Under the pieces are notes generated by a model, which saw nothing but the letters and a program-made list of their open reading frames with translations, had not been told where the DNA came from and did no database searches. From Pyrus communis (lineage: Eukaryota; Streptophyta; Magnoliopsida; Rosales; Rosaceae), in assembly GCF_963583255.1 (NCBI RefSeq), contig NC_084816.1:15425100-15489099 (forward strand): a stretch of DNA of 64,000 nucleotides. The letters run 5' to 3'. The position numbers were made by a program, and so were the translations under genes. Positions 6,403-49,000 of this stretch are shown piece by piece (the first letter of the stretch is position 1; each line of letters begins with the position of its first letter).

Positions 6403-6959
6403 TCCTTTCTTCTCCGATCTAACCTCGCCGGACTCCGGCCACCGGAAAACTGGGAAAGTTTAAAACTCACTATTCTCCGTCGTTTTTCATCCATTTTTCA
6501 CGTATTTTATACCAAAATGAAGCCCTAAACCTCAACTACCACGTTGGACTAGTTTTAGAGCCTAAAAACAACGGAATCAAACTTTCCAAAATATGAAAAT
6601 TCGGCCAAACTTACAGTTCGTGATTTCGACGTCCAAAACCGTCCAACGATGCACTCCCAAGCTCCTTGGGACCTCACCAACACATCTACAAGCTTCAAAT
6701 GTCCAAAAACTAAGTAAATTAATGTTGCATGAACAGTACTCAAATCGGAGTTTAAGAAATCGACGTGAAAACGTCGATGTTCTTACCTGAAAAGGGTATA
6801 TTCGTGCTCCCCTCGACCTCACGATCACAACTGCACCCTTGGTTTCCTCGATCTGCTACGGTATAATGGTTCTTGGTGTGTGTCCGTACGTTTACAGTGG
6901 AAATGGGAGCTCGGGGGAGAGAGAGACAGGGAGAAGACAGAGGGAGAGAGATAGGGACA

Positions 6960-6963
<4 letters not shown>

Positions 6964-6994
<31 letters not shown>
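6964..6994. repeat. (GT)n microsatellite
   Basis: About 30 bp of GT dinucleotide inside the solo LTR. Confidence 0.95.
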
Positions 6995-6995
<1 letters not shown>

Positions 6996-7110
6996 CCCAA
7001 CACATGCCAACACCACACCACCCACCAACAAAATAACGAAACGAACTAGGGGCTAAAATGTCATTTCACTAGTACGTTTTAATAATCCCGGGACGGGATG
7101 TCACAGCTGC

Positions 7111-7504
7111 AGTTTGAGCCATGATTATTAATTTTTTTGTCGAACTTCAATTTAGAAATTTACAAAGAAGTTCAGTGCTTATGATATAACTATTCAATGT
7201 TAATTTTTTTTTCGTGACTTAATTACTCTCTTTTGATTAATTTTTTTTTCATTCCAATACAAAAAACGAACCCCCATTCTTCTCCCATTAGTATATTACT
7301 TTTGTTGCTCGTGTTTCTTATTTTTCTCGTTTTTTTACTCTACCACTGCTTGAAGTATATGCTTATTACAGTAAGCATTTCAACTGCTTTTTTTAGGATT
7401 TATTTGCATGTTTACTAAGAATTGATTACAAAAATATTTTTACCAAAAACTTTTTCAGACATTATGAAATCACTTCCAAAAGAGTCATGTTACCAAGTGT
7501 TTCT
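7111..7504. other. Intergenic, no gene seen
   Basis: AT-rich with several T-runs. 7430-7490 resembles one arm of the Rosaceae-type MITE at about 42356-42583. Confidence 0.4.
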
Positions 7505-7684
7505 AATTTTTTTCTTTTTTTTTACCAAACGATATTATCTATACTAAGGGGATAAGGGAGTCGACTTAGTCTTACAATGAGCCCGCAATAATGTGGTTCA
7601 AAATCTCATTTGGTGATAATCGAACCTAAGACCTCTCACTTACAAGTGAAGAGGAATATCACTAGACCGTAATACTAAGTGGGT
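7505..7684 (-). mobile_element. tRNA-derived SINE, copy 2
   Basis: Minus-strand member of the SINE at 3504-3691, with the same body (tcttcacttgtaagtgagag, then ggttcgatta B box) and a T-run at its left end, which is the element's 3' A-tail. It is flanked by caagtgtttct (7494-7504) and caagtttttct (7685-7695), a 10 of 11 target duplication. Confidence 0.85.
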
Positions 7685-8059
7685 CAAGTTTTTCTGACAT
7701 AAAAATTGAGCAAAGATTATGTAAAGTAACTATTTTTTTTTTTCAATAAAAGAAAAGATAAAATAGTTATTTTCTTTTATTTTCCTTTAAATTTTTTACT
7801 GAAAGAAAGCACATAAATGTCAAAAAAAAAAAAAATACCGGCATAAAAGGAAAATGAAAAAAAAAAAAAAAAAAAAGGAAAACTAATGGAAACATCCTAG
7901 AAAACTTTCATTTAACCTTAAGGACAAATAATTTCAAAAATGGCAATGTTGCCCTTGAAAACCTTCTTACAGAAAAAACCAAAAGTATCCAATCTCCAAC
8001 ATCCATCAGAAGTCACATGCTCTTCATCAAAGCAAATATAAGAATTCCAGGAGAAAAAA

Positions 8060-8490
8060 CTGTGCAGCAGGTTCACATGTAAGGCAAAATGAGACAAACA
8101 AGTTCACATGCAAACTAAAAGGAGACAGGCAAATTCACATGCATTTATCAAACAAAAGTCAGACACGTTTTCAGCAACAGTAGAAGCAAAGTGACAAATA
8201 CCAAGGAGATGTTCACACCAACCACTTGTAAAATTTTATACCATTATAGCCCCATTCAGTATATATAAGTGTAGTTCTATTCATTGTAAATATACCTCAA
8301 CATCTCAACACCTGAACACCTTATTCTTACCATATACTTGTGGACATCAGGAACTTTTCGTGTTTACAATACTCACACCATCTTCATACTCTCAAGCATC
8401 TGTAGTCTTCATAGCATCCTTGTAAACACTTTCTTGTAAACAATTATCTTTGTAAACATTCTATATATCAATAAAAATTCAAGTGTACAT
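8060..8490 (+). promoter_or_regulatory. Pararetroviral promoter, R region and poly(A) signal
   Basis: TATATAAG at 8262-8269 predicts a start near 8293. AATAAA at 8470-8475 lies about 180 bp downstream, the spacing seen when a terminally redundant pregenomic RNA reads past its own poly(A) signal once. Upstream, ttcacatg recurs at 8072, 8103 and 8134 with an exact 31-bp period, an enhancer-like array. The canonical initiator-tRNA-Met primer site was not found in the leader. The elements look undamaged, but activity cannot be judged. Confidence 0.6.
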
Positions 8491-8870
8491 ATTCAAGCAA
8501 TCTCCAAGTCTTAAATAAGTTTTCTTTTCTTTCTTACTTTTCTTTCTTTAGTGTGTTTGCTTAATTAGACTTCTAGTCCAAAATAAGGAAATACTATTGT
8601 AGTTATATTATTAACATGCTAAACTAATGATCATACTTTGTTCGAGCACTCTATTATAGTTGAATGCTTACCATACAAATATTGGACATTAATCAGGGTA
8701 CCTCTGAGTTCTTCGTACCTCTGAGTTCAGCCGTTAAGGCCTTATACTTGTACTCTGAGTGGCCATTATGCTGAAACATGTCGAGTTCCATGTGTAAGGT
8801 TTTATGTCTAGTTGTTATAATGGTCATCCGACTATTTAATAGTATAATTATAATAGTAAATACCTTGAGG

Positions 8871-9109
8871 AACAGATCAAACTTTAGAGACCACAACCAC
8901 TAGGTATTTATTGTCCCAGACACCCCACTATAAATAGCATAAAGAGAAGATTAGCATATATATCCAAAGAATTAGCAGGACTTTGAAGAATCAAAAGTTT
9001 TATCTTGGTTATCTTGAACATTCTTCATTTATTCATAAATATAATAACGCAGAAGTGCAGCATAAAGTTTTAGAAGCAAAAAGAGCAACAGATCAAACTT
9101 TAGAGACCA
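8871..9109 (+). repeat. 23-bp direct repeat in the viral leader with a TATA box between
   Basis: A 23-bp stretch beginning aacagatcaaactttagaga and ending cca occurs at 8871-8893 and again at 9087-9109, just before the ORF1 ATG (9109). CTATAAATAG (8930 region) lies between the copies. This could be a local duplication, or the footprint of an insertion or of template switching. Confidence 0.75.
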
Positions 9110-9681
9110 TGAGAGAAAAAAGAGAGTTTCTAAGAAGTTAGTTAGCCGTAACTTTAGAAAAATGTAGACTGTAGTTTATAATACATTACCTTAATTTAGA
9201 AATTAGTGAACCTTGAAAAAGAAAAATAATCTTAGATCAAAATAGTTTAGTTTGTTATTTTCCATTGAGAAACCATAATCATGTTTTGCATAGTAAAGAA
9301 AATCCACTAGCCAATAGTATAGTAAATCTTACTTTTAGTCAAGCAGAAATTATAAAATTAGAAAATAATAAGCATAATCATTTGTTAAACCAGTTATTAG
9401 AGTATTTTCAGAAAAATTTCATAAAAGCAATTAGACAAAATTTAAACTATATTACATTTCAGTTAGAAGATAATAATAAAAATATTCAAAAGTTTCCTAG
9501 CAAAAGAGAGAAAAAAGAGCTTGTTGACCTCATAGATAGTAAGTCAAAGCAAGTAGAACTTAGATCATTAGAAGTAGTTGAGCAGTTAAAATTAGAAGTC
9601 CAAAAAATTCAATTAGTGCAAAAAGATTTAAGTGAACAAGTAGATAAGTTGCATAATAAAATAGATAAATTATTAGTTTAA
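9109..9681 (+). pseudogene. Pararetroviral ORF1 (broken)
   Basis: One frame of 190 codons from ATG 9109 to TAA 9681, interrupted only by three substitution-type stops near 9139 (TAG), 9172 (TAG) and 9214 (TGA), with no frameshift. The C-terminal 140 residues are open, Lys/Glu/Gln/Leu-rich and predicted coiled coil. The size (about 22 kDa if uninterrupted) and position fit the first ORF of tungro/badnaviruses, whose function is poorly known. A naive ORF search starts at a TTG (9265), which I do not take as real. Confidence 0.65.
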
Positions 9682-9692
9682 TTATTAATTTA

Positions 9693-9893
9693 ATGACCGA
9701 TTCTAAAACTAGCAAAAAATATATCCAAGTTTTGAAAGAAATTAGTAAGTTAGACAAAGAACCAGTAGGTTTAATAGATTTTTCAATACAAGTAGCCAGT
9801 AGTAATATTCCCATTTGGCAAAACAATTTAATTATTCAATTAGTTTTAAGTTTGGCTAAAAAATTAGATCAAGTTGAAGAACAAATAGCATAA
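9693..9893 (+). CDS. Pararetroviral ORF2, small protein, 66 aa, intact
   Basis: ATG at 9693 (context TTAATGACC) to TAA 9891-9893. The 66-residue product is acidic-basic mixed, with a C-terminal leucine/lysine heptad pattern suggesting a coiled coil. The next frame begins at the stop (TAAATAA), so the ORFs are packed as in badna/tungroviruses, where the second ORF encodes a small virion-associated nucleic-acid-binding protein. That role here is inference from position and size. It is the only unbroken viral ORF. Confidence 0.55.
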   Translation: MTDSKTSKKYIQVLKEISKLDKEPVGLIDFSIQVASSNIPIWQNNLIIQLVLSLAKKLDQVEEQIA

Positions 9894-12800
9894 ATAAACC
9901 AAGTTTTCCATAACGCATCTTCATCACTTCCACCATCTTTGCTAGTTAAATTAGAAAATTTAACTTTAAGTGCAAATAATAATATTAGAAGACCTAAGCT
10001 AAATCCTTTTGATAATAGAAAATGGAACTCTTTAGTAAAAAAAGGAAAAGAAGTAGTTAAAGCTAAAGATATTTATCCAAATGAAGAAGAGGCATAAGAA
10101 TTTATTCGAAGAGGTTTTGAGAGAACACAGAAAAATAAATATAATTTGTATCAATTAGGTTTATTTGAAAACAGAAGTAAAACTATAAGTATCATCAGTC
10201 AACATGAAGTTAATTGTATCAATAAAGAAGTTGCATTTAATTTAATTAGTAAGGAAGCAATTATGCATTTGAGAAAATCACATTTCAGTCAGATTCATAT
10301 ATGAACAATATTAATTGGAATAGTAGGATTAACCAGAGCACAAGTAGGCACAAAAGCATTAGTATACATATATGACGATAGATGGGATAATCACCAACAA
10401 GCAGCAATAGCAACAGCTGAAGTAGATTTAAGCTCAAACTTAGCAGTCATAGGTTGTATTCCAAATTATGTTATGACAATTAATGAATTTAGTAAATATA
10501 TTAAAGAAAGCATAAGAACAAAAAATTATAATATGAAAAGAGAAAATAAAAATTTATGTATTAGCTTAATGTATATTGATAAAGTGTCTGATAAATACAA
10601 TCATAAGTTTAATTTAGAATTTCAAAATTAAGTTCAAACATTTGGTAGTAAACATGTAAATATGATAGAAGCAAAACTCATAGATAATAGTTTTTTAAAA
10701 GGAACTCAGTGGACATTACCTAATTTACAAGTAGCAAGAAATAGACAACCAAATAAAGTACAAATACATGAAACTAGTATAGGTCAAGCAACAATTAGGT
10801 TTAGTAATTACAAACAACAAGAAAAAATAGAAGAGAATGAAAGTGAAATCGAAAATGAGAGTATACATATGACTTTTGATAATTTAGATATTAATTTAGT
10901 TGAGAAATTCTTTGATCATATTGTAGATAAACTTATAGAAGATATTGATCATTTAAATGAAGAAGAATACTTAGAAAAATATAGGACATATGATTTAGAA
11001 CTACATAGAATTTCAGATGAAGAGATGGAAAAATTAATTTTAGAAATAGGAGTAGAACATATTTTAGGATCAAAAGAATATAATAATTTATTAGAATTGA
11101 AAGAAGAATGTAATCCAGCAGAAGAAAGTAGTACATTAGCAGTAGAAACCCCAGGATATGCAAGTAGAACTGATCAACAATTTCTGAGACCAACAAATGA
11201 ACAATATAATGAAAAAGCAAAAATAGATTACATGGAAGAAAATATGATAAAACCACCTAGAAAAAATAGGATTCTATATTTGAGAGGGTTAGAACAAATT
11301 AATATAGCTGGAAATATATTAAATTTAGATAATGTAGATCCAAAAGATTGGGAAAGAATGGTTGAGAGATGGGAAAAGAGTTGCGTACATGTAGCATTAA
11401 TGTTAGATTTTAGTAATTCACAAAATATGTTAGATTATTTTGAGCATACTTTAGATGATTTAGTTTTTTATTATTCTAGTCATGAAAAGTCCAAAATCCA
11501 TAATAGCATCAGGCAGCTAAAACACATTTTAATATAGATGGTTTTGTTACTTTGATTAAACAAGAATGTTTAGATCATAACAGGTTAGATGACAAAAATG
11601 AACAAGAACAAATAAGGCCAATTAGAGATTTAGAACAATTGCAAATTTGTGATTTACAGTATATAACTGAGTATACAACAAATTTCTTTAAATATTTAGA
11701 AAGAACAGGTAGAATTAATGATATTAATTTATTAGATACTTATATGATAAAAATAAAAGGACCAATAGGAGAAACGATTTGGAATGAATGACAAAAGCAT
11801 CCAAAGAAAATTGATATTGCAATAGGACCTAGAATTCAACATGTATATGATATACTTAGACAAGAATGCAGTCAAATAAAAGCTAAGAGACAAATTAGGA
11901 AGCAAGTTTATATGAGCTATAAAAATATACCACAACAGTATGGTTGTCATAAGAAAAATAAGCATAAGAAAATATACAAAAAGAAATATAAGTCATACAA
12001 ATCATACAAACAGAATAAGAATTTCAACATAAGACCTTCAAGAACATATAGAAAGAGAAAATCTATTCCAAAACAATTTAGGAAAAGAAGTGGCAAACCT
12101 TGGATTAGAAAATATAAAGCACCAAAAGATAAGAGTAGTTGTAAATGTTATTCATGTGGAGAGATTGGACATATTAGACCTAAGTGTCCAAAATTAGGTA
12201 AACATGCGAGAGAAAAAGTACATTTAATGAAGTTGTTTAAGTTAGAAGAGGATGAGGATATACAATCAATATATTGTTTAGATGATTTAAGTAATAATGA
12301 GAGTATTTATAGTATAGAGAGTATAAATATGATATATTCAGATTCTGAAAATTCAAGTAGCACAAATAGTGATTTAGAAGAGTATATGTGTGCATTCATA
12401 GAATAACAACATAAAGAAAAATATAAATACATTAATTTAGGTTGGTCAGAAAAATGTCATAAGTGTAGTAAATTAGTTGCAAATAAATATTATAATACAT
12501 ATTCAATATTGTGCGAAAAGTGTTATAAAAATAAGTTATTAGAAATTAATTCAGCAGAATCACATGAAAATACTAAAATATTAGGAAATATTGTTTATAG
12601 TATAGAAAGGCCAAAAAAATAGTTTTTTAATTACTATAAATTGTGAAATAGAATTAGCAAAAGAACATAAGATACAAACAACAGCTATGATAGATACAGG
12701 GAGTACAAAGAGTGTCATAAGAGAATAATTAATACCAGAAAAATATAGACAAAAATTAGTAAAACCAGTAAGAATAACACAATTTGATGAGAGACCAGTT

Positions 12801-14640
12801 TACTTAACATATTGCATTAACAATGAGTCTATTAAAGTGGAAAAACAACAATCTAATTTACCGTTAACATTTGTTTCACCAGTAGGATCATACCCATTCA
12901 TTTTAGGTTTAAATTTCTTGAAAAGTTTACAAGGTTTTTTTATTTATGAATCCTAACATAACATTTTTCAAAAAAATGTATTACAATAACTGATCAAAAT
13001 AATAATGGAGAAGCATACAAAAGCATAATTATAGAAGAATCTAGTTGTCAAGATAGTTATTATTTGGAAAACTCAAAAAACAAATGATGAGCATAATAAC
13101 ATAAAAGAGTTTGATGAAGAAATATTTGAACATGAATATCCGATTTTAGAAGAAGGAACCCGTATAGAAATATTACAGTTAAATAGACCAAAGAGTTTAG
13201 AAAAATTGTTACAATTAGCAGAACAAACTAGGATTATAGGAGAAGACCCACAATTATATTGGAATAAAAATAAAATATTAGCAAAATTATATATAATTAA
13301 CCCAGATTTAACTATAAAAACAGCTGACATGCCTTGTAGTTTATTACATATACAAGAGTTTAATCACCATATAAAAGAGTTGTTAAATTTAAAAGTAATT
13401 AGACCCTCTAAGTCTAGACATAGATTAGTAGCATTTATAGTGAGCAAACATTCATAGCTTAAAAGAGGTAAGGCTATAATAGTTTATAATTAAAAGAGAT
13501 TAAATGATAATACATATGAATATAGTTATAAGTTACCAAATAAGGATGAACTTATAAATAAAATTCAAGAGAGTAAATATTTTAGCAAATTTGATTGTAA
13601 ATCGGGATTTTGGCAAATACGATTAGCGGAAGAATTAATTGAGTAGACAGCTTTTACTTGTCCAGAAGGACATTTTGAGTGGCTTGTTATGCCATTTGGA
13701 CTTAAAAATGCTTCATCAATCTTTCAAAGAAAGATGGACCAAATTTTCAAGAAATATGATAAATTTTGTAGTGTTTATGTAGATGATATTTTAGTACATA
13801 GTAAAAATAGAAATAAACATAGGAAGCACTTGAAGATAGTTTTACGAGAATTCATCAAAAATGGATTTGTAATTAGTAAAAATAAAATAGCATTAGAAAA
13901 GTAAGATATAGAATTTTTAGGAATGTATATCAAGTCAGGTACAATACAATTACAAGATCATATAGCTAAAAAGGTCTTAAAATTTCTAGATAAGTTAGAA
14001 GACAAAAAAAACAGTTACAAGCATTTTTGGGATTGTTAAATTATGCAAGAAATTTTTATCCCTAATTTAAGAAGAAAAATAGCAGTATTATACAGTAAAA
14101 CTAGCAAAACTGGATAAAAGTATTTTAATAATGAAGATATGAAATTAGTTAAAAATATAAAAGAAGAAATTACTAAACTTAAGCCATTAACATTAACATT
14201 ACCATTAGATGATAGTTACAAAATAGTTGCAACATATGCTTCATCATTAGGATTGGCATGTATATTATACTAGAAAAAGCATAAGCAGTCTCCAAAATCT
14301 TATGAACAAGTTTGTAGATATTCATCAGGAAAATTTAGTAATGTACAGTCAAAATTACTGTCAACGGATTTAGAAATATTAGGAATAATTAATTTACTTG
14401 AAACATTTTCTTTATTTTTACATAATGAAGTATTTACGATTAGAATAGATTGTCAAAATATAGTTTCTCATTATAATAAGATACATGCTAATTAACATGC
14501 AACCCGAAGATGAGTTAATTTTGTTGATTCAATCACAGAAAATGGTTTTAAACCAATTTTTGAACATATAAAAGGTAATAACAATACATTAGTTGATATC
14601 TTACCAAGATTAATTTGTTGAACAGGTATGGAATATCGTG
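9894..14640 (+). pseudogene. Pararetroviral polyprotein: movement, capsid, protease, RT, RNase H (broken)
   Basis: About 1570 codons. Movement-protein domain at about 10200-10810; acidic linker 10820-11130; capsid about 11220-12400 with a zinc knuckle C-x-C-x2-C-x4-H-x4-C (Cys codons at 12140, 12146, 12155, 12185) preceded by a Lys/Arg-rich stretch; a second CxxC...CxxC pair near 12460-12530; aspartic protease D-T-G at 12693-12701; reverse transcriptase with M-P-F-G-L-K-N near 13689 and Y-V-D-D at 13776-13787; RNase H about 14200-14600. In-frame stops are at 10095, 10302, 10629, 11535, 11789, 12404, 12726, 13455, 13491, 13644 and 13902, with more after 14100. Frame changes fall near 11520, 12615, 12950-13090, 14008 and 14060. 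The usual start position (9894) reads ATA, not ATG. It cannot yield active enzyme. Confidence 0.85.
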
Positions 14641-14906
14641 GACCATCGTCCTCAAATAGCACAAGACCACAAGGTATAATAGCACCTTTTAGTAGCATAA
14701 TTATGCATCATGAACCTCCACAATTCAATGGATTTCAAAATAGCTGACCAGCATCACCACTAGTACCTACTTTCAACTTTAATGGCAATATTGCTGAAGG
14801 AATCAGAAATCCAACCCTGAGATATAGGCCAAGAATACCAAGACTTTCTGATAGTCAGCAGGTTCTCTTAGATAATTTTTGGAATATCTAAATTAAACAG
14901 CCAAGC

Positions 14907-16268
14907 ATGAGGTTAGGTCATAAAAAACTAATTAGAGCCTTAGAACAAGAGTTTGATAATTTTAATTTTAATTTCCATCAAAGCCCGCAACATATTCATT
15001 TTCTTGAGCACAACCTTCAAGTCATCTCTAAGGATCATGAGTCGTTACTTAGTAAGTTTATCAAAATGAACCAAGAACTCCAATTTCTTAGAATGCAGCA
15101 GAAGACAAGTGACACCCTGAAAAGAGAATTGAAAATAGGTTTGAAAACTGATCAGCATAAGAATAAAGGAAAATAGGTTATTGAACCCATAGAACAAGAG
15201 ACTAATGAGCCAATAGAAGAAATTAAGATTGAACTCTTAGAAGAAGACATTGAAATGGAGCAACATCAAAATAATAAGCAGCATCAGCTTTTGAGTGATA
15301 AAGAAAAGCAAGAAAAATATGAAAGTTTTCTTAGGAATATATCTTATCTTTAGACTTAATAATAGATGATATTTTATTAGAAAATTTTCAAAAGCAAAAT
15401 TAAGAATAATGCCACCAGATATTCAAAATGAGATCCTGAGCAGAGCATCACAATTCATGAAAAAGTTACAATTACAATTACAATGTGCTTTGTATCAGTC
15501 TATCTTTTATTCAAAACCAGGTATGGATATTATTACAAAGATATGTCCACCATGCCTTTGTGATAATACAAAGAATTGTATTTGTAAACCAAAGGTTAGC
15601 ATAGCTGTAACCAGGATTAACATGAGAGATTATAGACCATGTCATTTTAGTTATGAGTATCAAGAAAAACATAATGTGGTAGAAGTTACCCCAGCTTTAT
15701 TATTAGAGTTTGGCTATTTTGATAAAATATTTATCAACCATGTCTTCCAACTAGAATTGTTTACTGAAAAGCTTTTGAAAGTATCAGAAGATTATCTGGA
15801 AAGATAGAAATTTGCATAAGTTCGATTAGTAGTCATCCAGATTGGTATATACATATGCATAAGGAGAAAGTTAGGCATATAGTCATAATTAATGAAGAGT
15901 CCTTTAGACTATTCTCTATCTCTCCACATGGGTGAATTCCTTCATACAAAAATATTCTAAAATTTCGAGCTATCCAAATGCTAGCCTTATATGATTTTGA
16001 AGATTTTAGGTATGATATGGTATTAGTAGCAGAAGAGGAAGAAATATATATTTACAGCAAGACAATGATCAGTCATCAGCCTTATAGGAAGTCTCAAAAT
16101 TTCAAAGAAGAAATAGCAGAAATGTACTACAATATGAAAGAAGATAAAGAAGAAGATGCAAAGCTGGTAGAAGACGATGAACAGTACTGGAACAATTTAA
16201 CAGAAGAAGAGCTGCATAACATCGACAACATGATGGAAGCAGGAGGAGCTGGTAGTAAATTAGCATAA
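14907..16268 (+). pseudogene. Pararetroviral ORF region downstream of RNase H ('ORF4'-like, broken)
   Basis: Three open blocks lie on the viral strand: 14907-15176 (89 aa, coiled-coil-like, Gln/Lys-rich), 15409-15807 (132 aa) and 15978-16268 (96 aa, very acidic C-terminus). They are joined by short stretches with stops at about 15175, 15351 and 15931 and frame changes between them. The middle block has a cysteine cluster C-P-P-C-L-C-x6-C-x-C. Codon use and A-richness match the rest of the virus. The position equals ORF4 of rice tungro bacilliform virus; I recognise no sequence similarity to any known silencing suppressor or transactivator, so the function is unassigned. 14640-14906 may be its leader or upstream part. 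Confidence 0.6.
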
Positions 16269-16430
16269 GTTGAATAGCATCATGTAAAATAATGTATTTC
16301 CGACGAAAATGTCAACATTATTGTGGACCTCGGTATAATAATAAAAATGGCATAAGAGTAAATAAAGAAAAGAGTTTGATCTATTATGAACTTTTCATAC
16401 ACAAAATATCATTTTGATTAAGAATGAATA

Positions 16431-16660
16431 ATGCCAAATCATTTTCGTTAAAACTCTAAAAATAAAAAAAAAATACACATGGCTTTTACATTTTCTTCCT
16501 TCTATTTGGCGAAAAAATTAAATATTTCTCTGCAAAAGAACTCAACCCAAAGTAAATTGTGTAAAGTAATTATATTTTTATTTTTATTTTTCATTTGTTG
16601 TTATATACATTTCAAAACAAAACAGAGAGAGAGAGTGAGAGAGAGAAAGGCAGTGGAGAA
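16431..16660 (+). promoter_or_regulatory. SEC62 upstream region and 5' UTR
   Basis: Only about 230 bp separate the viral sequence from the SEC62 ATG. TTTTTATTTTTATTTTT-type runs at 16570-16590 and a GA-rich leader (16621-16650) are typical of a plant 5' UTR. No clear TATA box is seen. Any distal SEC62 promoter must lie in or beyond the viral insertion. Confidence 0.45.
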
Positions 16661-19600
16661 ATGAAGAAAGCAGGAGGGGCAGAGAAGAAAAGGGTGCGAA
16701 GGTCATCAAACGCCATTCAAAACGGCGGCAGAGATTCCAACTCTGATACCCCTCCTAGGGTTTGTTCTTTCTCTCTCATCCCTGATCTAGGGTTTCACAT
16801 ATATGAAATTGGGCATTTTAATTTTGAATTTTGTTTATATCTGGGAAATGAAATTTCGAAAATTGCCAATTGATTTGTATTCTCCGCAGTTATGTATTGT
16901 GAAAAGCACTGCCTTTTTTTTCAAAATAAAATTTATTTATTTATTAAATTTTATTGCTTACTCAATTGGGTAGGAGAGGGAAGGAACTAGTTAAAGTTTT
17001 GAATACAATGTGTCTCATTATTTAGGAATTTTAACTAAGGATTATAAGGGCATAAAATTGGGATAATGATTACCCATTTGAAGAAAATCTTCACTGGTGC
17101 TGGGTTTTTGCTTTAATAATATTGAATTTACTTGAGGGTGCAAGGGTATCTATGGAAAGTTGGATCATTTTGTTGTTCATGGTAGGGCTTTTGAGATTGG
17201 AGCGATTTGGTATGTCCTTATTTCTGTTATTGGGCATCTTTAACCTAGTAGAGAGGCAGGGATATTGGTATTAGCAATCTGGTTTAGCCTAAAAAAGGAA
17301 AGACATTCTTCAGAGCAAAAGAAAACAGAAAGCGATAAAGCGTAAGGGGGCACTGCAAGTGGATCAGAAATTGTTCGATGATCACATTTTTTTTCCTTGC
17401 ATGACCAAATTGGAATTGTTTTACCTATGTTGTGTGAGCAATGAAAAGAAATCATAGATGGGGTGCTAATTCTAGGACTGTTCTTGAAGAGAAACTCTTA
17501 CTAAGTGCTTTCTTTATCACTACATCTTCACTATAAGTTAAGGGCCTGTTTGGTGACCATTTGGTTTTTGGTTTTTGGTATTTAGTTTTCACTTTTTGTG
17601 CTTGAGATATGGGAAAAGTATAAAGGAGGGATTAAGAAGAATGGTGGGAGGGAGGGTAAAAAACAAAGAAGAATGAATAAAAACAAAACCTTTGAACTAA
17701 AAGCTACTTGAAATATTTTTGAAATAGTCTTTGGTTTTTAGTTTTCTTTTGTGTACCCTTCCTTATGGATTCCTTCTACATCTCTCCATCAGTCATTTCT
17801 CCACTCTTTTTCGTCTTTCCTTTCCACCATATACTTACTCCATATCCCAAGCACAAAAAGTGAAAACCAAAAACCAAATGGTTATCAAGCGAGCCCTAAG
17901 CAATTTACAGTAGACCTCCATTTGTAGTCAATATCTCCTGAGTGTAGTATCCTTGTTTTTTCTCTCCAACATGAAATTTTTTGAATGCAGACTATGTGTC
18001 TTATCATTGGATTGCATTGTAAGTGGAGGATAACAAATTTATGGACTTAGGGATTCCTTATATTTTCTTCGATACTGTAAATACTGGAGACTGTGAATCT
18101 GTGATAGTACTGAATAACTTCAACCAGATGATAACTTTGTGTTTCTGTTATGTTCTGTTGTGAATTTAAGTTTTCTTGCATGATTTTAGTCTTCTCTATA
18201 GCATGCAAACTTCAATTCCGGAGTCGGCAGCCTCAGACCAATTCCAAACAAATCCATACATAGCTCAGATATTGAGATTTTGGAATATTCTGCATTGTAG
18301 AATTAGATGGTGTTGCCTACATGGTGATACTTAAAATGAATTTAATTTGTTAGTGTGCACGACTGCTTATAATGTACTTCTCTTTATCACTTGATTATCT
18401 CAACCTTAGGTAATTAGTAATCAGTGACGAGAAAGTTATTGTTTCTTTTGGATATAGCTCCCCGGCTTGATTATTATCTTTGTCCAATTTTGTTTTGGAA
18501 ATTGTTTCTTAGGAAAGATAGGTTTTGGCCAACTGGTTTCCGTTGCTATAGCCTGCCTATATTTTCACTGTGTGCTGATTGCCATGTGATTTTCATTCAG
18601 AAACAAGCTACCCAGAAAGATGTGTTCCAGTTGTTTGCTGAGAAGGTGAGAGACAATAAGGATTTGGTGTCTAGGTGGGCTGTTCTACAGGAGACACGTG
18701 TGGAATATTTCAGGGGAAAGGATTTTGTAAGCTTTTTAAGAAATCATCCTGATGTTAAAGATACTCTAGAATCAGATAGAAATCTAGAAGCTGAAGATAT
18801 TGCCGATGCTTTACTGAGAAAGAATCTTCTGGTGCGCTGTGATCGTGTGGTGAAAACTCTTCGTCCTGGGAAGAGAAAGTTGTCTACATGGCCTGCACAT
18901 TTGGAGATCTTTCCGGTAAGCTAACCTCTTAATAGTTCTTGTACAAGTAGCTTGCTGCCCTTGCAGATGCAAGCTCTGCCTTTTAGTTTTTTCGTTTCAT
19001 CTTGGGAACCACTTAAGGTGACTAAATCCGGCTTTTCTGTTTCAGTATATCTGCATTGCCTATGTACTCCTACTCTTTATGATCATGCTACGCTTCTAAT
19101 GTTTACTTTGTACTTGTACTGTTTACATGTGGTGATATTATCATACCCTTTTGTACTTTTTACTTTAGATTGCAATGTCTTGATTTTATATTTATAAAAC
19201 ATTGAAAACTATGGAGGAAATGGGTGAACTTACTCGAAAGTGTTTTGAAATGTCCCTTTAGTAGGTTTACTTATGCTTAAATCTTGTCTTTCTGTGTGCT
19301 TTCTTCTCTTCATGTATTTTCTAACCACCACACACCACATCTGGTAAATGGTTTATTGTTATTTGCAGGACCAAGTATTTTCTGAGAATGATGCCTTCTT
19401 TGCATGGACTTTTGTAAAACGAAGGCCTCTCTGGCAGACACTTCTTTCATTTTTCTGGCCGGTGGTTACATTGGCAATATGCTTGTTTCCTGTATATCCG
19501 CATCGGTGCAAGCTACTAATACTCTACTCATGTCTTGGGGTCCTGCTACTTTTTTTTTCTCTACTAGTTTGTAAGTTCTGAACTTCTGGTCATTTGTTTT

Positions 19601-19811
19601 TAGTTTAAAATATCATTAGGAACTTTACATTTTCTTAAGTCTTGTTGGTTTACAGTGATGTGGATATTAGAGTATAAATTATGTTCATACCACCCCTATT
19701 CAAAATGGTCACTATTTTATTACACTTACTGCTGTGCTGGATATAGCGACAATTTTGCTCGTTAGTGATGTGGTGGACAGCAATATGCCTTGCAATTGAC
19801 ACACACACACA

Positions 19812-19856
<45 letters not shown>

Positions 19857-20996
19857 CAGGCTGTAGATTCTAGGTTTATATCTCATTCTTTGTAAACATA
19901 TGCATGCAAACACAGCCACCCTTACATTTGTTTTTCTATAAGGATTTGGTATCATCTTGGCGTAAAGATCTTATAAATTTCTGTCTTACACTTTCATTTC
20001 TTTGAATGGGGGGGGGGGGGTATCATCTTTCTAGAATACCTTATATGGGCATCTACAATCCTCACCAATTTTTATCTAGATTTTTTAGCTGACTTCAAGC
20101 TTCTATGCAGCGTTTTAGTTCCTTGATTTGGGTTGGAGGGTTAATAATGCAAATGATCGTTGCTTTTAGTGATCTGTTCTCTTTCATGTCGAACATAAAC
20201 ATTTAATTTTGTTTTGTGATTTTTTAATTTCCAGTGAGGGGAACAATATTTGGAGTTCTATATATTGTTCTGGGAAAGCGAGTTTGGTTTTTCCCGAACA
20301 TTCTCGCCGAGGAAGCTACTTTGAGAGAACTATTCCGTTTCTGGCCCAAGAAGGATGAGGAGGAGCGACCAAAGTGGACAACAAGGGTTTTCTATGCGGC
20401 AGTTGCAGTGCTGGTCATATTGCTGCTGAGGCACCATGCTCCTGATGAAGCTGCCAGAGCCAGGTGAGTTCTAAACCGACCAAATAAACCGTAATCGAGG
20501 GGAGGGGGCACTGGCGGATTCCGCCGAAGGAGTAAAATTTAGAAACATTCAGATCCACAATAATTTGAAGACCTTTCTTCTTTATATTTAATCTTTTGTT
20601 GGGACGCTAAATACGCAATCATAGATGCTCTGCCTGCCTGCTAACATGCTGATTCTATTTTCTGCTTCTTGGTGTTGCGAATCATACTAATGGTTGACTC
20701 TACGTTGTTGCAGGTACCAGAAACGTGTATCTAACATTATCGATGATGTTATCGAGTGGTCTCCAAGATTGGCGCTTTCTGGGATGATGGAGAAGCAGCA
20801 AACTGTGGTCAACGCGACAGAGCCTAGCGATGCAACAGAGGAAGAGGTGACACCACCTGATGGCATCGATGCAGAAACTTTCACAGTGCAGTACGATGCA
20901 GAAGTAAGTGAAAATCTAGAGAACAATGACGAAAACCTAGACAGTAGTGAAGAAAACCTAGACAACAAAGATGAACTAAAACACGACGACATATAA
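16661..20996 (+). CDS. SEC62: SEC62, subunit of the ER protein translocon
   Basis: Sec62 works with Sec61/Sec63 in post-translational import of proteins into the endoplasmic reticulum and, in other organisms, in ER-phagy. Five coding exons: 16661-16759, 18601-18915, 19369-19570, 20235-20463 and 20714-20996, all GT-AG, giving 375 residues, close to the usual plant length of about 365. Landmarks: basic N-terminus MKKAGGAEKKRVRRSS; conserved cytosolic domain (DVFQLFAEKVRD, EYFRGKDFVSFLR, LLVRCDRVVKT); two membrane segments at about 162-180 and 187-206; then GKRVWFFPNILAEEA and RFWPKKDEEE. The acidic C-terminus holds an ENLD-x3 repeat. The ATG follows a GA-rich leader. AATAAA is at 21077-21082. 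Intron 1 (1.84 kb) carries a MITE. It appears functional. Confidence 0.95.
17541..17897. mobile_element. hAT-like foldback MITE in SEC62 intron 1
   Basis: A 357-bp element with long inverted arms. The left reads agggcctgtttggtgacc..., then agttttcactttttgtgctt; the right reads ccatatcccaagcacaaaaa..., then atcaagcgagccct. The terminal pair agggc(c/t)... is inverted-complementary. The candidate 8-bp duplication matches poorly (5 of 8). Similar arms occur near 60735-61110. Confidence 0.7.
19815..19857. repeat. (TA)n microsatellite in SEC62 intron 3
   Basis: An AC tract (19799-19813) followed by a run of TA dinucleotides. A 12-base G-run lies further on near 20009. Confidence 0.95.
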
Positions 20997-22016
20997 ACTA
21001 TGCAATACCCGAAAGAACACACTGCCTTCTCTTTGCCCTTTCCCTTTAAATTCGAGTGTAAAACCGTGTATCAGACAATAAAGCAATTAGTTACAGAATT
21101 GTTCTTGGATTAAGAATCTGTGAAAAATTTTGTGAGGTTTAGTAGTGTGCTCCTACATGACTACTTGGATTGTAATTATCGGGTTATTACTCTGGGTAAT
21201 ACACAAATATTACTAGGCTTTTCAGATTATTATTTGTTACTAAGCAGATGACCGTTTTGTATTTTCGTTTAGTTTTCACTTTTTCGTGCGTGCTTTGTTG
21301 GGACTACAACATAATGCAGCGTAAAGGACGGAACTGGTATTAAGCGAGATTATATGAATATGAAACAAAAAATTGAAAGTGAAAGCAAGCTTAAAATTGC
21401 TTTAGGTTTTTAATTTTTAGTTTTCCCAACACACTTTTCTAGAATTGTAGCACAAACGAAACATCCAACGCTAAAAACGAAATAGTTACCAAACGGGTTC
21501 ATAACAATACCAGGATTCGACCTGCATATCGCTCTTTAAAACTTGAAAAAGTTCCAAAACACCTGCCAAGGAAAGTTCAGTTTCTAAAAGATGAGACGTC
21601 TATGCAGTTTGGAAAATCTGCAAATCACATTCTATGAAACGGATAGATGGATCTGAATAGGATTATCATGCAGGGGAATAATACTCAAAATCACCGGCAG
21701 CCATAAGTACACAGAACAAGCAGTTAACAACGACAACCAAAAAACAACTGAAATTCCATTCTCTTTCCAAACCCACATCTCAAAATGAAGGTGACAAACA
21801 CAATACACAAGATGGTTGATGCATTAAACAAGAGTACGACTCGTTTAAATTTCCGTCTTTCCGTCTTTCGTATGTACTTAGAATTACTGAAAACTACTCT
21901 GTACATTAGGCAGAAGTAGGAAGGGACGTAATGAAAGTGTCAAAAGGACTTCACCGACGCCAAATGACCCTTCAATATCTCTCCTTCCCTACATTTATGC
22001 CTCGAGCTCAAGAACA
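20997..22016. other. Convergent 3' ends of SEC62 and NF-YA
   Basis: Holds the SEC62 3' UTR to about 21110 and the distal NF-YA 3' UTR from the right. Between them, 21250-21500 has weak inverted arms (gttttgtattttcgtttag and its partner near 21470) like a decayed hAT MITE. No gene. Confidence 0.5.
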
Positions 22017-22117: not shown

Positions 22118-25100
22118 TCACTGGATGGCAAGACGCCTCTGTGAGGCCTGGTTCGAAGATATGCTTCCCCGTTGCTGGCCTGTACAATCTCCTTCTTCCC
22201 CTCTCTTGCCCGAGTATGAAGGATATATCGAAGCCTGCAGGCCACCATGGGGCTGGTAGCAGCCACTACCATTTGCATAATTGTGAGCTACATACGCATC
22301 GTGCACTTGGGAACCTCTTGCTTCCCGTTGACTATTGGGGGAATTCCATGTTTCGGCAGAATCTGATGGAAAGGGTTCTGAACCCGATGAACTGCCAGAT
22401 TGTGATGAGTGGGCTGGACCAGAACTTGTACCCTTTTCTTGTCCAGTGCTGTTTGAAGTATCACCATTAGGTTTCTTTGCAAAACGTCCTCCAGTACCTC
22501 TCGCCCTTCTCATAGCATGTTGATGTCGTGATTCATGAAGATACGGCTGTAGAAAATAAAATTAAAGAACAATTTACCAAAAGTTTATATGCTTGCAAGC
22601 TATTCATATTACATAGAAACACAAACACTAACAATTTGAGTTGCTTTTACCAAACTGATACCAAATATGGGTAACACAGCAATTGAAAGCTCCATAGTAA
22701 CGACATGTACTTCACATGGCAAACCATAAATGTATATCCTAAGCAAGCACATACTTCCATTGGCAGTGTGCAGGTGACAATGCATCCCTCTACGCATACT
22801 TCACGGACATTGCATAGCCATATTCAGGTAGGCATATTTATCTAATTTACCTTATTAAAAACTCAATTACAACGACACTAATGCATAAACTTTAAGGAGC
22901 ATGCAAATCTTTTAATGGAAAGAAACAGAGTAGACAGCCAAATAAGTTCATTGACGCAATAGAGACTGGACAGTGCACAAGTCATATAAGTTGTTCCTGT
23001 TATGGAGGTATACCAAAGACCACACATTATACAACTATGTAAGCTTTAGTGTTATACACAAAAGTGAGCACTCAGACAATTCTCAAAGCTCTTTTCAAAC
23101 AATCACAAAGCTTCGATTGAATTGTGATTATGTAAAAGTCAATATTTTCTATAACCAAAGAGAACAGGCCCAATAAATGTCTTACCAAAAGTGAGAGATA
23201 CGGTTCACAGGCACATGAAGCATATATACAGTACATCTATATGAAATATAACATATTTATAGTACAAATACTTGTGTATGGGTTCTACCTTCCTGACTTT
23301 TATTAGCTTCCTTTCAAGTTCTGCTTTTGCACGTGCCTGTCTTCGCCTGAGAATACCTTGGTATTGTTTTGCATTTACATACACAGGTTCCTGTGCCATC
23401 TCAAGAGGCAATGGCATTCTAGCAGGCGGCATTCCAAGAAAAGGAGGATAACCCTGACCAGTTGAAACAGCATTTAACAGTCTCACACATTTACTTATCA
23501 TAAGATTTACTACTACATAAACTTCCAAATGCACCAAGATTAAATCGATATCATACCCAAGAAACATAATTTGAACGGGTTCAATGTTATAACTAATCTG
23601 TTTTTCACCACTACCACCATGATGCAAGACAACACAAAGTGGGCTTCTAACCAAGATTGTGGTAGGCTTTAGATGGCGAAAGATTTAGACATAAAAGAAA
23701 ATCAGGAAAAAACAAAAGATTTAGGACTGCTGTAAATTTTGGCTAAGTTTGGGAGAGAGACTTCCAAATTCCAAGGGTTTGAGGTCAAGTTAGTAAGGAA
23801 TAGACCACAAAATGTTGATAGGAGGCAATAGAAATGCACTCCATGATCATTGCAAAGGTATGCAGGAGGGATTTGCAAATGACTACTTGGAAGGAGTCAT
23901 TTGCAAATCCCTCATGCATTCCTTTTCAATGATCATGGAGTGCATTTCCAATCCTTCATTCCTAATGTTTTGTAGTGTGTTTCTTCCTCACTTAGCCTAA
24001 ATCCCTTGGGGCTTGGAAGTCCCTCACCCAAACTCAGACTTAGAGAAATTAGAGTTATATAGAATAACACAGACGAGACGACACAAGATAAAATGCACGA
24101 GGACATATCAAGGCACCAAGCCCTTCAACAACACTTTTGTTTATCCAAAACTAATTTGCATTACAGAAGACAACTTTCTTTATTGTCTTCACAGAATCGT
24201 AGACATACTTGGTCTAATTACCAGGAAGGAGACTCATAAGAAAACTAAGACATTCAATACTTCTAAAAAACCAAAAGAAAACTATCCAATATCTGATTTG
24301 CTCTGATTTACTTTACAGAAGATAGCTTTCTTGGTAGTCTTCAAACCGAATTCCCTGACTTCTAGAAACACAGTCTGCCTCAATGGTAAGAAACTCTGAG
24401 AATACAAAAATATTCAATACTCCCAAGATCCAAAATAAATTGATTGTTAACAACAGTCAACATGAACTCTTAGATTGACTTTTTTAAAACTTATATATTT
24501 TACAATTTTATGGATTCTAGCATTATCATAGGTAGTTTTCTTTAAATAAAAAAGTTCTATTGTAGGAATTGTGATTAGTCTTGGGATTTTCTCTCCATAG
24601 ACTCGATAGATAAGATTATTTCATTATCTCCATTGTCCCCATCCAATTTGTTGAAATTCTATAATCTTATAACATTGCACCAATTCCTAGCTAACCCATT
24701 ATAGGACGTACACAAAAGTGGACAACTCAAACTACTCTGAGGATGTACATTAGCCACCGAATAGTATGGAGAAAAACATTAAGAAGAATACGACTGCAAA
24801 ACAATAAAGAAAAAACAGAAAAATCCTATAGTTTTAGTAAACCAGTCAGATCAGGAATAAATAAATAAATAAATAATGTCATAGAATTGAAAAATAACTG
24901 AAGAAAATGAACTGTCAGTAAATGCTTAAATACATTTAGAAATACAGACTGTTGGAGTCAGTAAGGTAAGTATAACATCTGCATAAACTGAAGTTACTGA
25001 ACCATTAGGTCATTGCACGGAAAATAAAAACACACAAATCCAACATGACATGTAAGATGGTATTGCACACAAGGATATTATTGTTTAACATACCAAAGGT

Positions 25101-27380: not shown

Positions 27381-27660
27381 TGGTGGCAACCTGGAAGGTG
27401 CGTTGCATTGCATTACCTATTGGTGAGAATAGTGTGGCCCACAGCTAATAAACAATTAAGATCTAGTATGAGTCATCACTCTAACACGAGAAAACAGGTA
27501 AATGTAATAAAAAGGCCCGGGTTAGGCCCATCTACGGACCCCAATCCCGTCAATATGATCCGGCAACCGCTTTTTCTAAGGCGCGGATGGAACTTTGCGG
27601 ACCTTACGTGCGGATGAAAGGTGTATCTGAACTAAAGAGTATCTAAATTCAAAATTTAAT
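27381..27660. other. Intergenic, no gene seen
   Basis: A mixed-composition stretch between the NF-YA promoter and the copia fragment; the 69-residue open frame here has no domain. Confidence 0.35.
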
Positions 27661-28515
27661 ATGAAGGACTTGAATGAAGTAGATACTATCTTGGAAATTA
27701 AAGTAAAGAAACATATTAGGAGTTACGCTTTGTGTCAGTCACATTATATACAAAAATTGCTTCTTAAGTTTAAGCATCTACAAATAAAAGAAGCAAATAC
27801 CCCTTATGACTCTAGTGAAACTTTGCTTAATAATTCTGGTAGGTCCGTTGCACAGCTTGAGTATGCTAGTGTGATCGGAAGTTTAATGTATGTCATGCAT
27901 TGTACCATGGCAGATATCGCATTTGCAGTAAGCAAACTTTCAAGATACACTAGTCATCCAAGTACTGCTCATTGGAAAGCAATAAATAGAATTTTTGGTT
28001 ATCTTAAAAGAACTATAAACCTAAGTTTAACTTACTATGAGTTTCCAGCAGTACTTGAAGGATATTCAGATGCAAGTTGGATAACAAGTGCTAATGATAA
28101 TAATTCTACATCAGGGTGGATTTTTACAATTACCGGAGGAGCAATATCTTGGGCTTCGAAGAAGCAAACATGTATAGCACATTCAACTATGGAATCTGAA
28201 TTTATAGTATTAGCGGCAGCAGGTAAAGAAGCGGAATGGATTAGAAATTTGTTATTGGAAATAGAGTTGTGACCACAACCAATGCCATCCATTTCTTTAT
28301 ATTGTGATAGTAAGGAGCATACAATAAGGTATACAATGGAAAGTCTAGACATATTAGCTTGAGACATGAATATGTCAAGTAATTAATAATTGATGGAGTT
28401 ATTAATATTATTTATGTTAAATCAAGTAACAACTTGGCGGATCCGTTAACGAAAGCACTTTCAAGAGTTTTGGTAGTTAGTACATCTAGTGGAATGGGGC
28501 TAAAACCCTTTACTG
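27661..28515 (+). pseudogene. Ty1/copia polymerase fragment (RT thumb and RNase H)
   Basis: A 203-residue open frame (27661-28272) contains the copia RT C-terminal region ([55 protein letters not shown]) and RNase H with its acidic residues ([18 protein letters not shown]). It ends at a TGA. Recognisable RNase H tail continues out of frame to about 28515 (YCDSK, KSSNNLADPLTKALSR in plus frames, STSSGMGLKPF). Protease, integrase and the RT fingers/palm are missing, so it is 5'-truncated. Confidence 0.9.
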
Positions 28516-46005: not shown

Positions 46006-49000
46006 TCACCGTCCTCTGGATATTGCTTCATCCAACTCATCATGCGTGGCGGGGAACAACTCTATGTATCGACTTCCAAGCGTCATCCTATCCTTGGCCA
46101 TCGCTGCCTTGGAGTCTTCTGCACTTGCAAACTCCACAAAACCTTCCCCGGTCGGCCTCCCTTCTGAATTCATTGTGAAATGAATTGAGGATTCTGACAA
46201 CACATAGTCCTTAAAGAAATCCATTATGTCATCCTTCCCAGCTGAAAATGGCAATCCCCTCAACCGCAATACCCCAGTATGCTCCGCTGAGTCCTTCCCT
46301 TCATCATAAGATTTGGCCCTTGGGGCATTTCTGCGAGGGGAACCACCACGAGAATCAGATACTTCTTGGGCTATTGCCTTGTAATATTCCTGCCTCTTAC
46401 TTCTGAACACTTCAACATATCTCCTGCCCATGTTCTGCCTATTCTTTTGCAGGGCAAAATCAACCTGGAGAGGATACCCCAAAACACAAAAAGCTTCCCC
46501 AGTGAACTTGCCATTCTTGTGGACAAAAAGAACATCAACAATGTCAAGACCATGGAAGAACTCAGCAACATCAACTTCTGTGCAATCAAATGGTAGACCA
46601 CGAAGCTTGACAACAGGGAAAGGCGGAGGTTGTCCAACATATGCATAAGGAGTTGGATTGTACATATAACTTGAGCCGGGGGAGGACCCATAGAATGAAG
46701 ATCCTGGCTCACTTAGCCGCTGACGCTTTGAACCCATTTCGCGGCCATCACCACCATCAGCAAATTTACTTTAGTCCCCAGTGACACAAGCAACAGAAAA
46801 GAGAAGCAAACTCATCAGTGCTCTTAGCACATATTGTAAAGAATCACAACTAATTACAGAACTACATTAATATGCATTCCAATTTTCCAATAACGTTTCA
46901 TTCAGTAACCATTTATGATTGAAACAAGCAGAATCTTGGTGCAGGAAGAAGAAAACGTACACCAATGACTCCTCCTAGTTTGGTACTTTTTTTTTTCTTT
47001 CTAGAAAAGCATTTCTCATGCAATTTTCATTGAACCACAACTTTTAAATCACAAAATATATGACTTAGAACCTAGGACAACAGTAGTTGCATTAATATAG
47101 ACTTCAAGATTAGGAATTCATTAGGTGCTGTTTAAATCTTGGCACTTTCATGTTCCTTCCGTGGATGTGGGAGAATCAAGTCCCTACGTGCCATCTCTCT
47201 TTGTGTTTCTTCTTATACATCAATTGTTCAGAAACAAGAATACATGTGCTACTCCTACAGGGATATTATCGATACATATAGAATTATAGATGCAATCATT
47301 GACATCATTCCTGCATATCAAATTTCCATACGATGTGTATTATAGGTTGTTGCATGATAACCACTATATAAAGCTCTGCCTTCACAAAATCCTCAGCCCA
47401 CGAGTGCTTGAAATAAGTCACTTAGTCATAAATACAAGTGTTCTAACAGTCAATAACCCAACTCGACTTCTTTACGATTACGTAAAATGACAGCTCGGAC
47501 CACTTCTGATCTTTCTAGAGGTGTATTTGTACTGTTTCCTTGATTACAGCAACAATAATGTCACCAATATAAGCATATTGTCGATTACTAGCTCCTATGA
47601 TTCGGCCAAAAAGAAGCTAGCGAATTACAGTTCAGCATTACGTGACACGAAATAATGCAGCCCACAAACATTAAAAAATAGGTTGGTTTAATGTCATCCA
47701 CAAATAACCCAATTTCGACACAACAAAACTGCTTATGTAACATTAGATGAAGGTATGACTATTATCTTCCATTTCTTAATATGTATTGTACTATTCCTTG
47801 TAGAATAATAAAATTTTAAGGTTTTTCAAGTATCAGGATGAATTGGATTTTGTTTTTATAAGGAATAAATAGTAATAAACTTGGTTAGAAATATGTGAAA
47901 CTTAGTTTTCAGTTTTTAAGTCAAAATATATGTGGAGTTGTGGACTAACCCAAACACAACACCACTAATAAATGGGTAGTTAAGCCTTAAGTGTCAAGTC
48001 ATTCCTCTCGATTAACAAAAGAGGTCGGATTAGGGACTAATAGTTAACAAGACATAACATGACAGGAAACAAACACCACCTTCTAACATCACTTGACAAT
48101 GAAGTACATAAATTGACCCAAACACAGCATGATCAAGGAAAAGGTTGGGTTAAATGCCTAGTCACCTTAAAATGGTTAATAAGACAAATTGGGTGAGAGT
48201 TCTTACTAGTAAGCAACATGAACCTAAATAATACGATCATACGAGTAGAACAAGACACAAATACTACCCTTTGGGACTGAGGACCTTGTGCTACTAACTT
48301 ACAAATTTTATAGGTTGGGAAACCCCTTAGGTGTAAAAATTATAAACTAAAGATAAATTTGCTCAGGAAAACCATATATGGTTGTTCACAAATATAGAAA
48401 TAGGATTTTTCCCGACAAAACAAAGAAAAATCGTAATACATTTGCATTATCCGCATCGAATCTCAGAATTTGGTTCATATATTTTTCTTCCATTACCCTA
48501 TACACCTACCATAAATTTAAATCATACTAGGTATTCAGCTACAGGTACTCGCTTAAGATATTAATGAGGTCAAACATTTTATTCAGGTCCTAAATAAACC
48601 TCTCGAAATTGTTTTAGTTTCGACTATAAGGTTTTGATGAACATACTTTCACATCCTAATTCCGCCTTTAAACGTGTGTCAATTTGAAAACAAGGGAAAT
48701 AATCAATAGTTCCTCAAATAGAAAAAAGTTTCCTCAGCCCAAATAAAAGACAGAAAAAAAAAAATTTATGAGTCCATTTATGAAATCAACATTATCCAAT
48801 TACAAATTACCAGCAAGAATGGTGTAAGGGTTTTCGAATCATCGATGACTAGCTATAGACACTAAATTTGTTGAATTTTCTTCGAAATCGAGCACACGAA
48901 GGCAAGCAAAACAAGCCCAAATAAAATTAGTTCTAATCAGATCATTTTGCATTGTTCAACCCCAAATAATCCATACAATTTCCGGAAAAATATGAACTTA

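Follow-up and report, generated by a model that had tools for sequence, protein, structure and literature searches.

Fixed termini and a 9-bp target-site duplication in a multicopy endogenous pararetrovirus family of pear with tungrovirus-like gene order

According to a 2023 review (PMC10377300, sections 3.1 and 3.2), ideas on the entry of endogenous pararetroviruses into plant genomes and on their multiplication there are speculative. Among described systems, rice tungro bacilliform virus (RTBV) and Orendovirus elements combine two small 5' open reading frames (ORFs), a polyprotein running from movement protein through coat protein, protease and reverse transcriptase (RT) to RNase H, an AUG-poor 5' region and, after RNase H, a fourth gene without transactivator (known partly from PMC5902531 and partly as general background). 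In dicots, Tungrovirus clusters, which include Rosaceae genera, and Yendovirus clusters are defined by RT; in the available text they are described by RT domains and genome structure, not by termini or duplications (PMC9794742, PMC5766536). We analyzed 64,000 nucleotides of Pyrus communis (contig NC_084816.1, positions 15,425,100 to 15,489,099 of the forward strand), referred to below as the window. In the window lies a decayed endogenous pararetrovirus with tungrovirus-like gene order, one of a multicopy family. This element shares the features listed for RTBV and Orendovirus but differs in its dicot host and in its RT, which is 51% identical to that of Agapanthus tungrovirus over 75 columns. 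Its 8583 bp, between two fixed termini whose boundaries were taken from genome copies, fall inside the 7.1-9.8 kb range of caulimovirid genomes (PMC10377300). The copies of the family were probably inserted by a transposase-type reaction rather than by random end joining, with a Mutator-like transposase acting in trans as the likely enzyme, a reading to which we assign a probability of roughly 0.75. It is favored because the termini are fixed, the flanks are unrelated, a 9-bp AT-rich duplication borders the copies, the primer site is internal, and neither long terminal repeats (LTRs) nor poly(A) are present.

The termini of dispersed copies are sharp to the base, reading GGGAAAACTA...TTAAAACTCCC. 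When the host genome (487 Mb, 29 contigs) was searched with window positions 16270-16900, the matches ended at 16445-16475 in 38/38 cases (the best 40 of 106 candidates, minus the window itself and one host-flank match). For the left side, 40 of 202 candidates were scored with 7700-9200; 11 of the 119 listed pieces started between 7864 and 7877, and the others were inner pieces or copies with a diverged left region. Aligned stretches gave a common sharp border in 9 of 10 cases on the left and 10 of 10 on the right (GGGAAAACTAATGGAAAC and TTTTCGTTAAAACTCCC, with single-base variants). The 30-base left terminus was found at 11 places within 3 mismatches in the 487 Mb, while its reversed control was found at none. 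Nine right flanks compared all against all were unrelated apart from one 28-bp match. Four of nine left parts resembled each other where they had diverged from the left region of the window, yet these parts still belong to the element.

Sixteen of the 18 copies scored had flanking 9-mers that matched with one mismatch at most; the 18 were those among 30 tried in which both termini were recognized, and offsets of up to 2 were allowed in copies and controls alike. Nine of the 18 carried an exact 9-bp duplication at zero offset. Mispaired flanks reached 8 of 9 in 11/306 comparisons, and 0 of 20,000 permutations reached the observed match sum. At k=9 the excess over mispaired flanks was 0.336, compared with 0.098 at k=10. 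The duplications are 94% AT, and mispaired flanks already match at 60%, a background that the permutation takes into account. The idea of a 9-bp footprint arose from about four copies, which are included in the first 12 (10 scored); among the 18 copies fetched later, 8 could be scored and 7 of these matched at 9 of 9. Probing with the 9-mer of the right flank also recovered a short derivative (L089, C11:20428500-20431700, at 20.43 Mb) in which TATAAACTT stands exact on both sides of about 1.6 kb. All that L089 retains is leader and right-end sequence, the counterparts of window 8169-8871 and 15862-16456; the genes from ORF1 through RNase H and the bulk of the fourth gene are missing. The presence of such ends and an exact 9-bp duplication on this derivative further supports transposase-type insertion. 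In five copies (L019, L021, L022, L026 and L027) the left ends have 4 mismatches to the 18-base terminus of the window and are diverged up to about 8.05-8.4 kb, with duplications that are equally exact. These copies are perhaps subfamilies with exchanged ends.

In other copies a tRNA-Met primer site sits some 0.9 kb within the element, so the ends differ from the discontinuity at that site. The motif TGGTATCAGAGC was exact in seven of nine copies and had one mismatch in two; these nine came from 12 fetched left stretches, of which three dropped out, L020 and L030 because neither matched the left side of the window and L029 because it was too short. The site was not recognizable in the window copy. 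No LTR and no direct repeats >34 nt were detected in 6500-18500, and the aligned right junctions carried no poly(A). In L020 (C5:12240700-12244000) an exact tRNA-Met primer motif sits in DNA unlike the left side of the element, and this copy possibly carries a copia-type insertion.

Duplications of 9 bp are typical of Mutator-like elements (MULEs) in general, and MULEs of the class without terminal inverted repeats (non-TIR MULEs) lack long repeats of this type. Together with Pack-MULEs, these elements share with the pear family the 9-bp duplication, fixed ends, foreign cargo and, as proposed here, movement in trans. Unlike them, the pear family carries an entire viral genome as cargo, has no recognized transposase inside and shows a terminal inverted repeat of at most 4 bp. 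Mu itself makes a 9-bp duplication (PMC2774946). The host genome contains at least 150 MULE transposase domain matches (150 of 364 candidates scored), some of them in frames of at least 700 codons, and this supply, with the fitting footprint length, is why a MULE is proposed as the enzyme. A MULE transposase supplied in trans would insert the copies, and the element would be a composite, an entire viral genome carried between short transposon-type ends.

Several observations weigh against this interpretation. Twelve of the 30 copies could not be scored since one terminus was not recognized, and of eight of these that were re-examined, one showed an adjacent duplication. Among the 18 scored copies, one reached 7 of 9 and one 6 of 9, and the duplication of the window copy is an A-run and therefore of little weight. 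One of the 10 aligned left ends, at C14:8.04 Mb, lacks the common border. No empty site was shown; a paralogous stretch on C8 was rejected as a candidate because, of the two flanks, only the right one matches it. Apart from GGGA/TCCC the two ends are not inverted copies of each other, so membership among MULEs rests on the 9-bp footprint. Neither a transposase nor, likewise, an integrase was recognized in the + strand pieces scanned and in 10 of 18 minus-strand ORFs of at least 60 aa, and part of the MULE domain matches are perhaps domesticated host genes. The C8 stretch itself (L088, C8:11003000-11012999) is collinear with 16488-21209 of the right flank (74-86%), which would fit an ancient genome duplication.

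Other routes of insertion account less well for these ends. Filler-DNA repair at TA repeats is one of two widely held ideas (PMC10377300, section 3.1), and end joining at double-strand breaks could give fixed ends if viral DNA opened at its replication discontinuities. In rice ERTBV, over half of the ends map to the intergenic region and others to the discontinuity (PMC526188), and the flanks of the pear copies are AT-rich. The ends of dispersed pear copies, however, agree to the base, the primer site is internal, and exact 9-bp duplications would not be expected, so that we regard this route as most improbable; base-exact termini and a 9-bp duplication, which set the pear family apart, are not mentioned for ERTBV in the available text of PMC526188. 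Help in trans from retrotransposon machinery, either retroposition of viral RNA by long interspersed nuclear elements (LINEs) or the action of an LTR integrase, is the second hypothesis in the same section of PMC10377300. Reverse transcription is native to the virus, and the window contains a copia RT remnant (27631-28269, RVT_2, 9e-6, below cut-off). LTR integrases leave duplications of 4-6 bp and LINE duplications vary in length, unlike the constant 9 bp seen here. With no poly(A) at the aligned right junctions and no direct repeats >34 nt around the element, retrotransposon help appears very unlikely.

Two further scenarios concern how virus and transposon ends came together. In a Pack-MULE-like capture, a dead integrated viral copy would have been enclosed once by transposon ends and would then have spread only as a DNA transposon. 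This accommodates the many copies with the same gene order and ends, the L089 derivative without most viral genes, and the isolated left end beside genes on C11, and we consider it possible, though short of an even chance. What speaks against capture is the pattern of coat differences, which peak at third codon positions as if a selected protein had been made between insertions. K80 distances among eight coat copies, the best-scoring of 150 listed, were 0.072-0.126 over 28 pairs (mean 0.104). By codon position the differences were 0.081 at the first, 0.071 at the second and 0.135 at the third, methylation-driven C-to-T changes included. This pattern suggests that selection at the protein level acted on the lineage during part of the interval between insertions. 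Ten fourth-gene copies, with a mean difference of 0.118 (45 pairs), gave 0.116, 0.081 and 0.123 at the three positions, a weak contrast. The third-position excess in coat is also a reason to consider that a living pararetrovirus carried the transposon ends in its intergenic region, where the circle would have been opened at exactly that place, inserted by a host MULE transposase and later replicated again by reverse transcription. The element covers a complete viral genome, has just one intergenic region and contains no recognized transposon cargo, which argues in the same direction; we nevertheless judge this cycle somewhat unlikely.

If insertion was of the transposase type, the base-exact ends and 9-bp duplication would provide a concrete insertion mechanism for at least one pararetrovirus lineage, and would allow copy number to rise high with no need for repeated infection. 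The insertion question becomes testable in any genome with many copies. Among the top-listed open-licence papers on this subject, we found none whose title or abstract start reports transposon-type termini or duplications for a pararetrovirus. The nearest parallel found is a fusion of transposon and virus known in fish, Teratorn, in which piggyBac and a herpesvirus are joined (PMC10175614). There an entire virus genome moves as a DNA transposon, as is proposed for the pear family; the classes of virus and transposon differ, and Teratorn has its own transposase.

The fourth gene belongs to the virus, because it is collinear with the coat gene on the same strand at most coat places in the host genome. 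Matches to the coat piece numbered 152 (150 listed) at 86 places, and those to the fourth-gene piece 131 at 102 places, counts that are lower bounds (150 of 433 coat candidates and 140 of 140 fourth-gene candidates scored). At 68 of the 86 coat places a fourth-gene place follows downstream in the same orientation within 20 kb, at 36 of them at 3.0-4.2 kb; the distance in the window is 3578. No fourth-gene place was found within 20 kb of a coat place on the opposite strand, nor any at 3.0-4.2 kb upstream. Places of the family were found on every one of C1-C17, a set that would agree with a base number of 17, as in apple and pear. The original prediction of about 1.3 kb of viral-type coding DNA after RNase H is thus borne out, and a host origin of the 14.9-16.3 kb region is ruled out by the collinearity. 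In addition, three fourth-gene pieces align with a single uninterrupted 203-aa protein of another contig: 14892-15173 at 84% over 19 aa, 15177-15350 at 84% over 56 aa and 15370-15804 at 75% over 118 aa. Four database proteins match the last of these pieces. Pfam scans of the fourth-gene pieces, with the short gaps between pieces outside the scans, returned no family, including the transactivator/viroplasmin domain of caulimovirus-type genera. The collinear fourth gene contradicts the Badnavirus trait of having no separate gene after RNase H. A structure model of one piece of the fourth protein was too poor for use (pLDDT 44).

The 85-aa RT palm piece was compared with named viruses in BFVD by Foldseek alignments, most of which were loose superpositions (root mean square deviation about 14). 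Over 75-82 columns identity was 61% to Piper DNA virus 1, 59% to taro bacilliform virus, 56% to Vaccinivirus, 54% to Jujube associated badnavirus, 52% to cacao swollen shoot virus, 51% to Dahlia mosaic virus, 50% to rose yellow vein virus and 46% to soybean chlorotic mottle virus; Citrus yellow mosaic virus reached 64% over 50 columns only. Caulimovirid rows with an assignable genus were of clade A genera, and the top 50 rows include no petuvirus. Among protein database sequences (best 120 of 193 matches), one contig gave 89% over 84% of the piece, and matches covering at least 90% of it reached 69% at best, several of them on chromosome-sized contigs. Since the RT piece matches other contigs, the lineage, as judged from sequence, reaches beyond the pear genome. 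A search of IMG/VR gave 14 pattern matches and no confirmed relative.

The view that an ORF in the last position is typical of tungroviruses held in part. RTBV P4 was called unique to tungroviruses, possibly orendoviruses, in a 2018 review (PMC5902531). In DNUaV, however, an ORF4 with a transactivator domain follows ORF3, and such genes are named in other genera too (PMC6135502). Together with dicot fossils (PMC9794742), this rules out a gene order exclusive to tungroviruses, although PMC5902531 points the other way. What remains is an RTBV-like gene order, here in a eudicot, in line with the dicot host proposed; scans of the fourth-gene pieces detected no transactivator domain. The suggestion of an undescribed dicot lineage of tungrovirus-like viruses is weakened. 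Tungrovirus-01 comprises 251 sequences from 29 species, Prunus to Vitis, and clusters occur in Malus, Citrus and Lindenbergia (PMC9794742, Table 1); an RTBV-like RT at 60% was reported from grapevine in 2009 (PMC2714080), and Yendovirus falls with badna- and tungroviruses (PMC5766536). The best RT identity to a named virus (61% over at least 75 columns) is near the 62% threshold used for operational taxonomic units in PMC13308828, which would favor novelty, but BFVD identities differ in measure from the identities used there. With dicot clusters of both kinds already published, an undescribed lineage seems unlikely.

Domains were read from the + strand, one stop-to-stop piece at a time, over 9.2-16.3 kb (Table 1). 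The Caulimoviridae order of movement protein, coat with CCHC knuckle, aspartic protease, RT and RNase H is present, and with the two small 5' ORFs this upholds the proposal of a near full-length endogenous pararetrovirus, its extent moving from 7900-16430 to the termini given in the table. The element is decayed: there are frame changes (0, 2, 0, 1, 0), and both ORF3 and ORF4 contain in-frame stops.

Table 1. Coordinates of the pear element and its parts in the window
Feature	Position	Strand	Remarks
Left target-site duplication candidate	7862..7875	.	A-run, low complexity, weak in window copy; 8/9 bases match
Whole element	7876..16458	+	Two fixed termini, seen in genome copies
Left terminus	7876..7905	+	AGGAAAACTAATGG... 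in window, GGGAAAACTA in other copies
Left terminal segment	7876..8094	+	Also occurs alone, adjoining host genes, C11:3174814
Counterpart of tRNA-Met primer site of other copies	8800..8900	+	Not recognizable here
ORF1	9217..9681	+	154 aa, frame without Met codon
ORF2, small	9693..9893	+	Own ATG is the sole ATG in 9282-10021
ORF3 start region and movement protein	9894..10631	+	In-frame stops
Movement protein domain PF01107	10305-10628	+	8.9e-10
Coat region	10632..12622	+	CCHC knuckle; frame changes near 11.5 kb
Coat domain PF22909	11507-11788 and 11792-12403	+	2.6e-9 and 6.3e-6
A3-type aspartic protease remnant	12729..12956	+	Match 12729-12953, 1.4e-4, below Pfam cut-off
RT palm piece with YVDD	13647..13904	+	RVT_1 13647-13901, 3.9e-22
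RNase H piece	14274..14495	+	Match 14274-14492, 2.1e-8
Fourth gene	14892..16268	+	Pieces 14892-15176, 15177-15353, 15370-15807, 15936-16268; last piece placed by position only
Right terminus	16429..16458	+	...TTTTCGTTAAAACTCTA; most other copies CTCCC
Right target-site duplication candidate	16459..16472	.	A-rich

The 5' region is poor in ATG. No other 740-nt stretch on either strand of the window has one ATG or fewer, as 9282-10021 does, a stretch length that was picked after the fact; ORF1 alone is modestly ATG-poor, with 24/500 dinucleotide shuffles equally low. Such a sequence is consistent with leaky scanning, which has been ascribed to tungro-, orendo- and badnaviruses without transactivator (PMC5902531). 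In the living virus, ORF1-ORF3 may have been translated in this way from one polycistronic RNA, and the fourth protein would have been expressed separately. A regulatory region with TATA and AATAAA signals, as originally predicted, could not be distinguished from the window background: TATATAA occurs at chance (25 found, 23.4 expected), and AATAAA is abundant across the whole window (217 found, 164 expected).

Elsewhere in the window, an inverted repeat at 17541-17897, about 1.1 kb to the right of the element, has arms of 49 and 35 nt (86-88%) and resembles a foldback element or miniature inverted-repeat transposable element. Parts of host genes lie on the minus strand, namely NF-YA at 23208-23684 and an RRM protein with two RRM stretches at 46009-46770, and an F-box-type beta-propeller fragment at 162-821 on the same strand falls just below cut-off. 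The RRM exon is 87-88% identical to that of Ziziphus and groups with Ziziphus, Argentina and Ulmus (SH-aLRT 88, node not starred), which marks the host as a eudicot and probably a member of Rosales. By bit score the top rows for this exon were asterids at 77-82% identity (best 120 of 568).

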